Below are positions 365 to 5,018 of a stretch of DNA of 64,000 nt, one piece after another. The translations under genes were made by a program, and so were the position numbers. Source of the DNA: Bacteroidota bacterium (lineage in GTDB: Bacteria > Bacteroidota > Bacteroidia > Chitinophagales > Chitinophagaceae); the NCBI GenBank assembly GCA_013285915.1, contig JABDGS010000007.1:1-64000 (forward strand), given 5' to 3'. Below the pieces are notes generated by a model that was given only the letters and a program-made list of their open reading frames with translations, had not been told where the DNA came from and did not search any database. Numbering within the stretch: position 1 is the stretch's first letter; each line of letters begins with the position of its first letter.

Positions 365-442
365 GCACTTTACAGTATAATTGCTTACCGCCTGTCGTGA
401 AAAACCGGCAGTTCATCCGGCCATATATGCAGTTAACGCCTT

Positions 443-1588
443 ATGCTGTACCCGTTTTTGCAAAACACTAATTTTGATAGTTTAAACAACAGGGTGACTG
501 AAAATATTAAACATACTGATGCCCTTTTATTACAAACGCAGCTTGTGGGGCATGAGTTTAAAAAAGCAGGTTTTCTGCAAAAACGCTGGGTGTACCATAC
601 CATATTTTGGCTGGTGTACAACGCTTTTATGCTTACGGTAATTTTTTCTTATAAAACTTACGACACCATTTATTATTTTGAGTTTATCTCCCTTATTCCT
701 TTACAGCTTATTATTGCCTATTACAACCTTTACCAGTTAGTGCCACGTTTTTTACTTAAAAAAAAGTACACTGCATATATAACGGCATTACTTGTTTCTG
801 TAACGTTAACCTCTGTCTTAAATATTTTATTGCGTGGTTTTTATTTTCATTTAGATTCAAAATATTTTGCCAACTCATCCCACTTCACACTTTATAATGT
901 TGGTATACAACTGATGGATAATTTTTTTGTTGTAAGCCTTACTACAAGCCTTAAATTTTTAAAAAACTGGATGTTTAGCCAGCAGCAGTTAAAAGAAATA
1001 GAAAAACAATACCTAACCGCCGAGCTTAATTTTTTAAAGCTGCAGATACAGCCGCACTTTTTCTTTAATACGCTCAATAACCTGTACAGCCTAACACTTA
1101 AAAAATCTGACGAAGCGCCGGAAGTCGTATTAAAATTGTCTGACCTGATGAATTATATGCTTTATGAATCTAATACAGCCGGTGTACCATTGGAAAAAGA
1201 AATAATGCACTTACAGAGTTATCTTGACCTTGAACGGCTTCGTTTTGGAAAGCGCCTTAGCTTTTCGTTTAATATTGAAGGGCAAACTGAGCAGGCTATT
1301 ATTCCCCCCATGATATTAATTCCTTTTATTGAAAATAGTTTTAAACATGGGGCACGTAACAGCATAGACCAGGTGCGGATTGACATTAGTATAAAAGTTA
1401 AGGATGGGTATATACTTTTTGACGTAAAAAACCCGGTACCAAAAATAAAAGCGACTGCCGAAAGCACCGGTATTGGGCTTAAAAATGTAAAACGGAGATT
1501 AGACCTTTTATACGGTAGCAACTATGTTTTGAATTTGCGTGAAACAGAAAACGAATATGTTGTTTTTTTAAAAATACCGGTATGCTAA
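443..1588 (+). CDS. LytS/YehU-family sensor histidine kinase
   Basis: N-terminal TM helices; His-kinase motif 'LKLQIQPHFFFNTLNNLYSL'; C-terminal HATPase 'PFIENSFKHG...GIGLKNVKRRL'. Confidence 0.93.
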   Translation: MLYPFLQNTNFDSLNNRVTENIKHTDALLLQTQLVGHEFKKAGFLQKRWVYHTIFWLVYNAFMLTVIFSYKTYDTIYYFEFISLIPLQLIIAYYNLYQLVPRFLLKKKYTAYITALLVSVTLTSVLNILLRGFYFHLDSKYFANSSHFTLYNVGIQLMDNFFVVSLTTSLKFLKNWMFSQQQLKEIEKQYLTAELNFLKLQIQPHFFFNTLNNLYSLTLKKSDEAPEVVLKLSDLMNYMLYESNTAGVPLEKEIMHLQSYLDLERLRFGKRLSFSFNIEGQTEQAIIPPMILIPFIENSFKHGARNSIDQVRIDISIKVKDGYILFDVKNPVPKIKATAESTGIGLKNVKRRLDLLYGSNYVLNLRETENEYVVFLKIPVC

Positions 1589-2289
1589 AACCCTTACGGT
1601 GCCTTGTTGTAGATGATGAGCCGCTTGCAGTGGAGGTTATTGAAAATTACCTGCACCGCCTTGACAATATAGATGTTATGCGGCGTGAAAATGCGGTTGA
1701 AGCTTTTCAACTATTGCAGCAGGAAAAATTTGACGTTGTATTTCTTGATATTGAAATGCCGGTATTAAACGGCCTTGATTTTTTGAGGAGTATAAAGGAT
1801 GCACCTGCAATTATTATAACAACGGCATACCGCCACTATGCTGTTGAAAGCTTTGAATTTGAAGTGCTGGATTATTTACTGAAGCCTGTTTCTTTTCCAA
1901 GGTTTATGAAGTCATTTGAAAGGGCGCTAAAGTTCAGGCAGGGCATTAAAGAAGTTGATAAATCAGCACCGGCAAAAGAGGATGATTATTTGTTTTTAAA
2001 AGCCGAACGAAAGTTTATTAAAGTACTGGTACGGGATATTTTATACATTGAAAGCCTTAAGGACTACATAAAAGTTAAAACAAAAACACAAACGCTCGTG
2101 TCTTATCAGTCCCTCACCGCTATTACTGAAAAATTGCCGGCAGATAAATTTATGCGTATACACCGGTCGTTTACAGTGGGCATTGATAAGGTAAACAGCA
2201 TTGATGGCAATTGTGTTGAAATAGAAGGCGAGCTTATACCCATATCCCGCGAAAACCGGCAGGAAGTGCTTAAAAGAATTTGCAAATAA
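1582..2289 (+). CDS. LytTR-family response regulator
   Basis: Receiver domain 'VVDDEPLA...FLDIEMP' plus C-terminal LytTR DNA-binding domain ('YIESLKDYIKVKT...FMRIHRSFTV'). Overlaps the kinase by 7 nt. Confidence 0.95.
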   Translation: MLKPLRCLVVDDEPLAVEVIENYLHRLDNIDVMRRENAVEAFQLLQQEKFDVVFLDIEMPVLNGLDFLRSIKDAPAIIITTAYRHYAVESFEFEVLDYLLKPVSFPRFMKSFERALKFRQGIKEVDKSAPAKEDDYLFLKAERKFIKVLVRDILYIESLKDYIKVKTKTQTLVSYQSLTAITEKLPADKFMRIHRSFTVGIDKVNSIDGNCVEIEGELIPISRENRQEVLKRICK

Positions 2290-2472: not shown

Positions 2473-2521
2473 ACAGTTCGTCGTTAAAATATTACAGTTA
2501 AGCGAATATTACACGGTTAAG
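2473..2521 (+). promoter_or_regulatory. Three putative LytTR-type direct repeats upstream of the outer-membrane receptor gene
   Basis: ACAGTTCGT (2473-2481), ACAGTTAAG (2494-2502), ACGGTTAAG (2513-2521). Start-to-start spacing is 21 and 19 bp; compare the LytTR consensus [TA][AC][CA]GTTN[AG][TG]. Confidence 0.6.
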
Positions 2522-2582
2522 CGAAAACTGCCCATGCATCTTTTTAGGGCACGTTATTTTTAATTTGGCCAAACAAAAGTTT

Positions 2583-5018
2583 ATGAAGAGCAGTTTTTTG
2601 CTTGTTTGCCTGTTTGCAATGGCAACGGGCACGTTTGCGCAGGTTTCAGGCGTTGTTAAAGATGATAAAGGTAAACCGCTACCAGGCGTTACAATATCAT
2701 TAAACAGAAGCAGGGATTCTGCGATAGTGAAGTTAAACGTTACAGATGCAGGGGGTAACTACATGTTTAACAATCTGAACGAGGGTAATTACTTTATCAG
2801 CTTGTCGTGTATGGGGTATGCCGCAATCAATTCAAAGCCTTTCGCCGTTAATGCCGGCATGCAATTACGGGTACCCGGACTTATTATGACTGCGACCCTT
2901 GCTGACCTTAAAACGGTTGTTGTAACAGACCGCAAACCAATGATTGAAGTAAAAAGCGACCGCACAATTTTTAATGTTGAAAACAGCATAAATGCCGCCG
3001 GGCAAACCGCCCTGGAGTTATTGCGTAAATCGCCGGGCGTGGTAATTGATAAAGATGATAACATTAATTTAAACGGAAAAAACGGGGTGCAGATTTTTAT
3101 TGATGGCCGCCCGACACCGCTTACAGATAAGGATCTTTCCGATTACCTCAAGTCGCTGCAGTCGGCAGATATCGAAGCGATCGAAATTATTTCAAACCCA
3201 TCAGCAAAATATGAGGCAGCAGGCAACGGGGGCATCATCAATATCAGGCTCAAGAAAAATAAAACGTTTGGCAGCAACGGTTCAGTTACAACAGGGTATA
3301 ATATTAGTAATTTTTCAAAATACAATGGAGGAATCGTTTTTAATCACCGCAACCAGAGTCTGAATTTATTTGGCAATTATACCTATAGCAACATCACAGC
3401 TCCCGGGCATTTTGACCAGAGGCGGGAGGAATTGGATTCTTTGTTCGACCAGCATTCGATAATTCCAAGACATACCATCGCCAATAATTTTAAAACTGGC
3501 CTGGATTATTTTATTGATAAAAAAAGCACTGTTGGCATAATTATAAATGGCGCCCTTACGAAATATTTTACCAATACCAGCAGCAATACGCTGATTTCTT
3601 ATGTGCCAACAAACACACCTGAACGATTATTGGTTGCCAATAATACCCTTAACGCAATACGAAACAACATAAATATTAATACAAATTATCACTATGCCCG
3701 TGCTGATGGCAGCGAATTAAGCCTTGACGCAGACTACGGTAATTATAAGTTTAATACAGAACAATTACAGCCTAATGTTTACTATGATCCATCCGGGAAA
3801 ACGTTGTTATACAGCGACAAGTTTGATATATTATCACCAACAGGCATTAATATTTACAGTTTTAAAACCGACTTCGTGCAGCCCTTAAAAAAGGGGCGAC
3901 TGGACATAGGTATAAAACTATCTTATGTAAAAAGCGATAATGATTTTCAACAGTACCGCGTACTGTCTTCGGTTAAAATTTTTGATACGCTAAACAGCAG
4001 CGCTTTCAATTACCGGGAAAATATCAACGCGGGATATTTTAATTACAACAGGCAGTTTAAGTCCTGGGTCATACAGGCTGGGCTTCGTATAGAAAATACC
4101 ATTATTAACGGTTTTTCCAACGGCTATAAACCGGTTAATAATAATTATCTCGTGTACGATTCATCATTCAAAAGAAATTATACTGATTTGTTTCCCGGCA
4201 TGTCTGTTACTTATAATAAAGACCCGCTGAAACAATGGGTTCTATCATACAGCCGCCGTATTGATCGACCCGCTTATCGTGATTTAAACCCTTTTGAATT
4301 TAAGCTTGATGAATATACTTTTCAAAAAGGCAATACAGGGTTACGGCCGCAATATACCAACAGCACCGGTCTCACCTATATATACAAATATAACCTTGTT
4401 ATAACGCTTAATTACAGCCATATCCAGGATGTGTTTACTCAGTTGATTGATACAACGGGCGGTTCAAAGGCATTCCTTATCAAACAAAATCTTGCCACGC
4501 AGGATATTACAAGCCTCAACATAAGTTACCCTGTTCAATATAAATGGTATGGACTTCATTTTAACCTCAATTCATTTTATACTATCTACAAGGCCGATTT
4601 TGGGCCGGGTAGAACAATTAATCTTGACGTATATGCTTTTACCTTTTTTCACCAGCAAACTTTTAATTTAGGTAAAGGTATAACGGCGGAAGTTTCAGGA
4701 TATTATAATTCCCCATCAATACAGCAGGGTACTTTTAAAACTAAAGCTGTATGGACCCTGGACGCAGGTATGCAAAAAAATGTACTGGATAAAAACGGTA
4801 CGGTTAAAATATCTGTGAGTGATATTTTCCGCACTATAAGGTATTTATCAGTCAGCAATTTCGCCGGTCAGGTCGTGCATACATCAGCCAGGGCAGACAC
4901 AAGACAACTACGATTATTTTTCACTTACCGCTTTGGCAACAAGCAGGTGAAGGCAGCAAGGCAACATGCCAGTGGCGCCGAAGAAGAGAGTAGCCGCGTT
5001 GGTGCAAAAAGCAATTAG
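2583..5018 (+). CDS. Outer-membrane beta-barrel (TonB-dependent receptor-like) protein with N-terminal carboxypeptidase-regulatory-like domain
   Basis: Signal peptide 'MKSSFLLVCLFAMATGTFAQ', 'SGVVKDDKGKPLPGVTISL' CarboxypepD_reg-like domain, plug domain and long beta-barrel. The ATG at 2583 is preferred over the TTG at 2565. Confidence 0.9.
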   Translation: MKSSFLLVCLFAMATGTFAQVSGVVKDDKGKPLPGVTISLNRSRDSAIVKLNVTDAGGNYMFNNLNEGNYFISLSCMGYAAINSKPFAVNAGMQLRVPGLIMTATLADLKTVVVTDRKPMIEVKSDRTIFNVENSINAAGQTALELLRKSPGVVIDKDDNINLNGKNGVQIFIDGRPTPLTDKDLSDYLKSLQSADIEAIEIISNPSAKYEAAGNGGIINIRLKKNKTFGSNGSVTTGYNISNFSKYNGGIVFNHRNQSLNLFGNYTYSNITAPGHFDQRREELDSLFDQHSIIPRHTIANNFKTGLDYFIDKKSTVGIIINGALTKYFTNTSSNTLISYVPTNTPERLLVANNTLNAIRNNININTNYHYARADGSELSLDADYGNYKFNTEQLQPNVYYDPSGKTLLYSDKFDILSPTGINIYSFKTDFVQPLKKGRLDIGIKLSYVKSDNDFQQYRVLSSVKIFDTLNSSAFNYRENINAGYFNYNRQFKSWVIQAGLRIENTIINGFSNGYKPVNNNYLVYDSSFKRNYTDLFPGMSVTYNKDPLKQWVLSYSRRIDRPAYRDLNPFEFKLDEYTFQKGNTGLRPQYTNSTGLTYIYKYNLVITLNYSHIQDVFTQLIDTTGGSKAFLIKQNLATQDITSLNISYPVQYKWYGLHFNLNSFYTIYKADFGPGRTINLDVYAFTFFHQQTFNLGKGITAEVSGYYNSPSIQQGTFKTKAVWTLDAGMQKNVLDKNGTVKISVSDIFRTIRYLSVSNFAGQVVHTSARADTRQLRLFFTYRFGNKQVKAARQHASGAEEESSRVGAKSN

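Follow-up and report, generated by a model that had tools for sequence, protein, structure and literature searches.

An array of direct repeats in front of a TonB-dependent-receptor-like gene, found in the 64,000-nucleotide stretch of Bacteroidota DNA analysed here (the window), is likely to be an operator for a LytTR response regulator. The regulator encoded next to the array, activated by its kinase, would in turn activate both the receptor promoter and its own operon. We infer binding by the adjacent regulator, activation rather than repression, positive feedback and direct control of the receptor by this particular pair.

The original prediction placed the repeats between a LytTR regulator ending at 2289 and a beta-barrel receptor reading frame beginning at 2583, and Pfam agrees on both genes. 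The receptor gene (2583..5018, plus strand) has CarboxypepD_reg, Plug and OMP_b-brl_3 matches. The regulator (1582..2289, plus strand) consists of receiver and LytTR domains, with Response_reg and LytTR (PF04397) both above the gathering score (E 1.7e-21 and 1.6e-17), and carries FMRIHRS, an instance of the FhRhHRS motif which contacts DNA in AgrA. The sensor histidine kinase (443..1588, plus strand) had been called LytS, a name which holds by analogy only: its His_kinase domain (PF06580, E 2.1e-25) is LytS-like, but no other Pfam family was matched, the N-terminal half being without a Pfam match and the 5TM-5TMR_LYT sensor domain of true LytS not being found. An Rfam search gave no match, and a search of solved structures returned receiver domains among the matches listed and no LytTR–DNA complex. 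A paralogous operon of the same genome (L051, G000:C5:54500-60500) has the order reversed, with receptor, kinase and then a LytTR regulator 57% identical to that of the window, and no clear 21-bp CAGTT pair is present upstream of it. At a further locus (L154, G000:C8:26000-37500) another OMP_b-brl_3 receptor is divergent to a kinase–LytTR pair, with a second receptor nearby. The gene families, promoters and relatives of the stretch point to Bacteroidota.

Phased half-sites at the receptor and kinase promoters

Scored against the LytTR consensus [TA][AC][CA]GTTN[AG][TG], the distal half-site ACAGTTCGT (2473..2481) and the middle half-site ACAGTTAAG (2494..2502) are exact matches, whilst the proximal half-site ACGGTTAAG (2513..2521) has one mismatch, a G at position 3. 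All three are on the plus strand, in an array reading ...CTTACAGTTCGTCGTTAAAATATTACAGTTAAGCGAATATTACACGGTTAAGCGAAAACTG..., and form imperfect direct repeats of 9 bp. The positions, spacings and consensus fit originally given for them are all correct. The first two start 21 bp apart, which corresponds to the spacer of about 12 bp typical of LytTR operators and recurs in a second pair at 408/429, while the proximal copy follows the middle one at 19 bp. Degenerate AAACTTCAAACTTC-like repeats, intergenic and present at several places in the genome, occupy positions 2390–2470 of the window and are also seen at L208 and L209.

The pair at 2473/2494 is the sole perfect LytTR pair with a spacing of 20–22 bp on either strand of the 64 kb. 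Dinucleotide shuffling of the intergenic region (2290–2582) yields a perfect pair in 0.32% of cases; triples allowing no more than one mismatch arise in 0.04%. The middle and third copies have flanks in common, AATATTACA at 2488 and 2505 and GCGAA after each, and therefore look like a recent tandem duplication of 17–19 bp; ACAGTTAAGCGAA at the middle copy and ACGGTTAAGCGAA at the third differ at one of 13 bases. These shared flanks, and the low complexity of the intergenic region upstream of 2470, are what chance together with local duplication of 17–19 bp would leave behind, with no regulatory role for the repeats. Such an origin is barely credible in view of the shuffles (p 0.003 for the pair and 0.0004 for the triple), the independent pair at 408/429 and the conservation of the phased array in orthologues.

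The second pair, which like both candidate -7 elements described below is absent from the original prediction, lies upstream of the kinase–regulator operon. Its half-sites GCAGTTCAT (408..416) and GCAGTTAAC (429..437), both on the plus strand, are exactly 21 bp apart, and a weaker ACCGCCTGT at 387 continues their phase. Plain CAGTT-N16-CAGTT arises in 0.01% of shuffles of the kinase upstream region. The fuller pattern CAGTTNR-N14-CAGTTNR has two matches in the 64 kb, where 0.05 would be expected, precisely at the kinase and receptor promoters, and arises in 0.005% of shuffles of 365–545 (p ~5e-5), although exact p-values are somewhat flattering here, the pattern having been framed after both sites were seen. 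Across the whole genome (an assembly of 4.26 Mb, 63% complete) there are 11 matches, and five in the reversed control. The genome-wide scan that had been proposed as a means of defining the regulon thus picks out both window promoters; the remaining nine matches, which fall within long reading frames or where no clear gene start follows, do not look like promoter sites. Therefore the private regulon seems to comprise the receptor and the LytTR pair, as far as the incomplete assembly shows.

Both pairs precede a candidate -7 element of the Bacteroidota promoter consensus TAnnTTTG. That of the kinase–regulator operon, TAATTTTG (469..476, plus strand), is exact and lies 40 bp from the half-site at 429. 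That of the receptor, TATTTTTA (2555..2562, plus strand), has one mismatch and is set in AT-rich DNA, with alternative one-mismatch candidates at 2560 and 2561; it lies 42 bp from the proximal half-site at 2513, a distance kept at 41–43 bp in orthologous promoters. Reckoned from the -7 element, the centre of the proximal half-site would fall near -50 and that of the pair near -60. The array is thus upstream of its target promoter, with a start site deduced from these distances, and its geometry fits an activator. If TAATTTTG is indeed a -7 element, transcription of the kinase operon would begin near 483. The true start codon of the kinase is probably GTG 545 rather than ATG 443, since the N-termini of its relatives align from about 545 and the exact TAnnTTTG element falls downstream of ATG 443.

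The array in orthologous receptor promoters

Orthologues of the receptor, 45–57% identical, are present in many genomes of the same family. From 69 upstream regions gathered, 63 non-redundant ones were kept, the window being left out. Self-similarity over lags of 9–45 bp is highest at exactly 21 bp (z 7.8), and counted promoter by promoter a 21-bp dyad is found in 30 of the 63 against 9.6 expected (z 7.3). Expectation maximisation for an ungapped motif of 34 bp, which was free of any repeat constraint and trained without the window, returned T.CCGNTCA........TTT.T.CCGTTTGTC, in which a single half-site appears twice at a distance of 21 bp. This dyad mostly lies near -100 from the start codon; in 36/60 promoters its proximal half-site is followed at 41–43 bp by TAnnTTTG, which has one other occurrence. 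In the receptor promoter of the window the model fits best at 2472, matching the register of the dyad. Its score of 6.6 bits, which ranks 38 of 127,934 window positions, is low because the window has CAGTT/CGGTT where its relatives have CCGTT/CCATT. As a stand-alone detector the matrix was discarded as insufficiently specific, its best window match (240, 16.4 bits) being inside a transporter gene.

The original prediction had staked itself on conservation of the repeats upstream of orthologous receptors. What is conserved is the architecture, namely the 21-bp phase, the position at about -100 from the ATG and the fixed distance to TAnnTTTG; the letters of the half-sites are not, being CCGTT or CCATT in the relatives and CAGTT in the window. 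With this shared architecture and the matching CAGTT dyad at the promoter of the pair itself, the prediction of LytTR-type operators is supported. Scans with strict patterns of the orthologous motif matched little besides the receptor promoter, and thus give no sign of a wide regulon. One extra match (L168) was set aside, as no receptor, kinase or regulator of such kind adjoins it.

In 17/54 orthologous receptor promoters there is a strong third repeat on the distal side (GCATTTCACCGGAAA), not evident in the others; the third site is therefore a recurrent variant. In the window the third repeat is out of step with the 21-bp phase, at a spacing of 19 bp, which points to a candidate site of weaker or accessory character. 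The earlier proposal that three half-sites rather than two suggest graded or cooperative binding is speculation.

The probable regulator of the array

A LytTR pair lies within 1.5 kb in only two of the 29 nearest receptor orthologues (L077 and L080), so that the array is independent of linkage to a LytTR gene. As most orthologous arrays lack a linked LytTR gene and have half-sites of CCGTT/CCATT rather than CAGTT, another LytTR protein may act at them. The regulator of the window groups with that of one other genome, G036 (66% identical), and with its own-genome paralogue (57%), apart from the others; a search of contigs with it returned mostly relatives of 35–42% identity belonging to other groups. 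In G036 this closest orthologue is not beside the receptor, and upstream of the orthologous kinase are TGCATTTCAT and TGCAATTCAT, 21 bp apart.

A candidate for the regulator of the orthologous arrays is the L172-type LytTR/kinase group, which is present in 48/294 genomes of the family. It carries CCGTTTGTCG-type repeats upstream of the kinase which resemble the receptor half-site in those genomes (CCGTTTGTCGCC..CCGTAYGACGA, compared with CCATTTGTCGG), and it co-occurs with the receptor orthologue in 36 of the 48 against 13.6 expected, a comparison not corrected for phylogeny. At L172, L174, L184 and L212–L236 a conserved element, CRTTTGTCGNCGAAAA, is seen upstream of the kinase, followed in 20–21-bp phase by a weaker second copy.

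These observations, the persistence of the array at receptors with no linked LytTR gene and the approximately 23 LytTR-type matches in the window's genome would accord with an operator read mainly by a LytTR protein encoded elsewhere, with control by the adjacent pair directed chiefly at itself. For the window this is unlikely: its half-sites are CAGTT, as in the promoter of the adjacent pair and unlike CCGTT, and the L172 group has no match at E <= 1e-85 in this 63% complete assembly.

A still less probable alternative is that the consensus match is coincidental, with the repeats recognised by a regulator outside the LytTR family or serving in DNA bending. Direct repeats two turns apart are used by other factors too. 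Yet the two promoters around a LytTR gene carry the same 21-bp CAGTT pair, and consensus and spacing agree with published LytTR sites. Furthermore, among LytTR operons from other genomes, 12/30 have a dyad at a lag of 21 bp ahead of the kinase, where 2.8 would be expected. In the LytTR operons of the window's own genome, the window excluded, there is no significant excess per sequence (3/15 against 1.7 expected); a first lag test on these operons (z 5.8) was discarded because a handful of sequences, the window among them, accounted for it.

Activation by the adjacent pair thus remains the favoured reading. The PF06580 kinase (443–1588) would phosphorylate and so activate the response regulator (1582–2289), which would bind pairs of half-sites separated by two helical turns on one face of the DNA. 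Bound between about -100 and -50, it would activate the receptor's sigma-70-type (TAnnTTTG) promoter and, through the CAGTT pair at 408/429, its own operon, resulting in positive feedback. Most simply, the receptor promoter would be a long-standing target of LytTR proteins, under the control of an unlinked one in many relatives and of the linked pair in the window's lineage; the promoter of that pair shares the CAGTT half-site. A bolder history, somewhat doubtful as it stands, is that of a family-wide, rigidly placed LytTR operator at one conserved receptor, which in the window's lineage was taken over by a different pair that moved beside the receptor, the half-sites changing from CCGTT to CAGTT at both promoters. 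If true, this would be a rewired regulator–target pair.

Relation to known LytTR operators

Published LytTR sites have repeats of 9–11 bp and spacers of 11–13 bp (PMC4847170). The closest parallels are with the AgrA operators of agr P2/P3 in Staphylococcus aureus, which share with the window a LytTR response regulator with an FhRhHRS-type motif and 9-bp direct repeats with a spacer of about 12 bp. The promoter-proximal AgrA repeats are centred near -60 (PMC4227749), as the window pair would be from its deduced start. By contrast, the window belongs to a different phylum, and has a TAnnTTTG promoter, an outer-membrane receptor as target, three sites and no peptide-signal genes seen beside the pair. 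YpdA/YpdB of Escherichia coli, acting on yhjX, is likewise a LytS/LytTR-type two-component pair controlling a transporter. YpdB recognises the direct repeat GGCATTTCAT, with an 11-bp spacer and thus the same phase of 21 bp start to start, and fills its A and B sites sequentially and cooperatively (PMC4847170). The E. coli target, however, is an inner-membrane transporter with two sites, whereas that of the window is a beta-barrel receptor. The YpdB half-site also differs from that of the window, while TGCATTTCAT/TGCAATTCAT of G036 are very close to the YpdB repeat. The operators of SilA, VirR, PlnC and AlgR are similarly imperfect direct repeats, of 8–13 bp and about 12 bp apart, upstream of their target promoters (PMC2766830, PMC4064291), although organisms, targets and half-site sequences differ.

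The regulon proposed here is new and well bounded, and of a kind already known. This Bacteroidota genome encodes many LytTR regulators, yet a limited search of the open literature found no defined operator for a LytTR regulator of this phylum. The window and its orthologues supply one that can be tested, consisting of half-sites in 21-bp phase placed 41–43 bp from TAnnTTTG, and a two-promoter regulon of the receptor and the kinase–regulator operon is likely. The approximately 55 natural variants of the array provide material for studying DNA recognition by LytTR proteins and the exchange of regulators at receptor genes.
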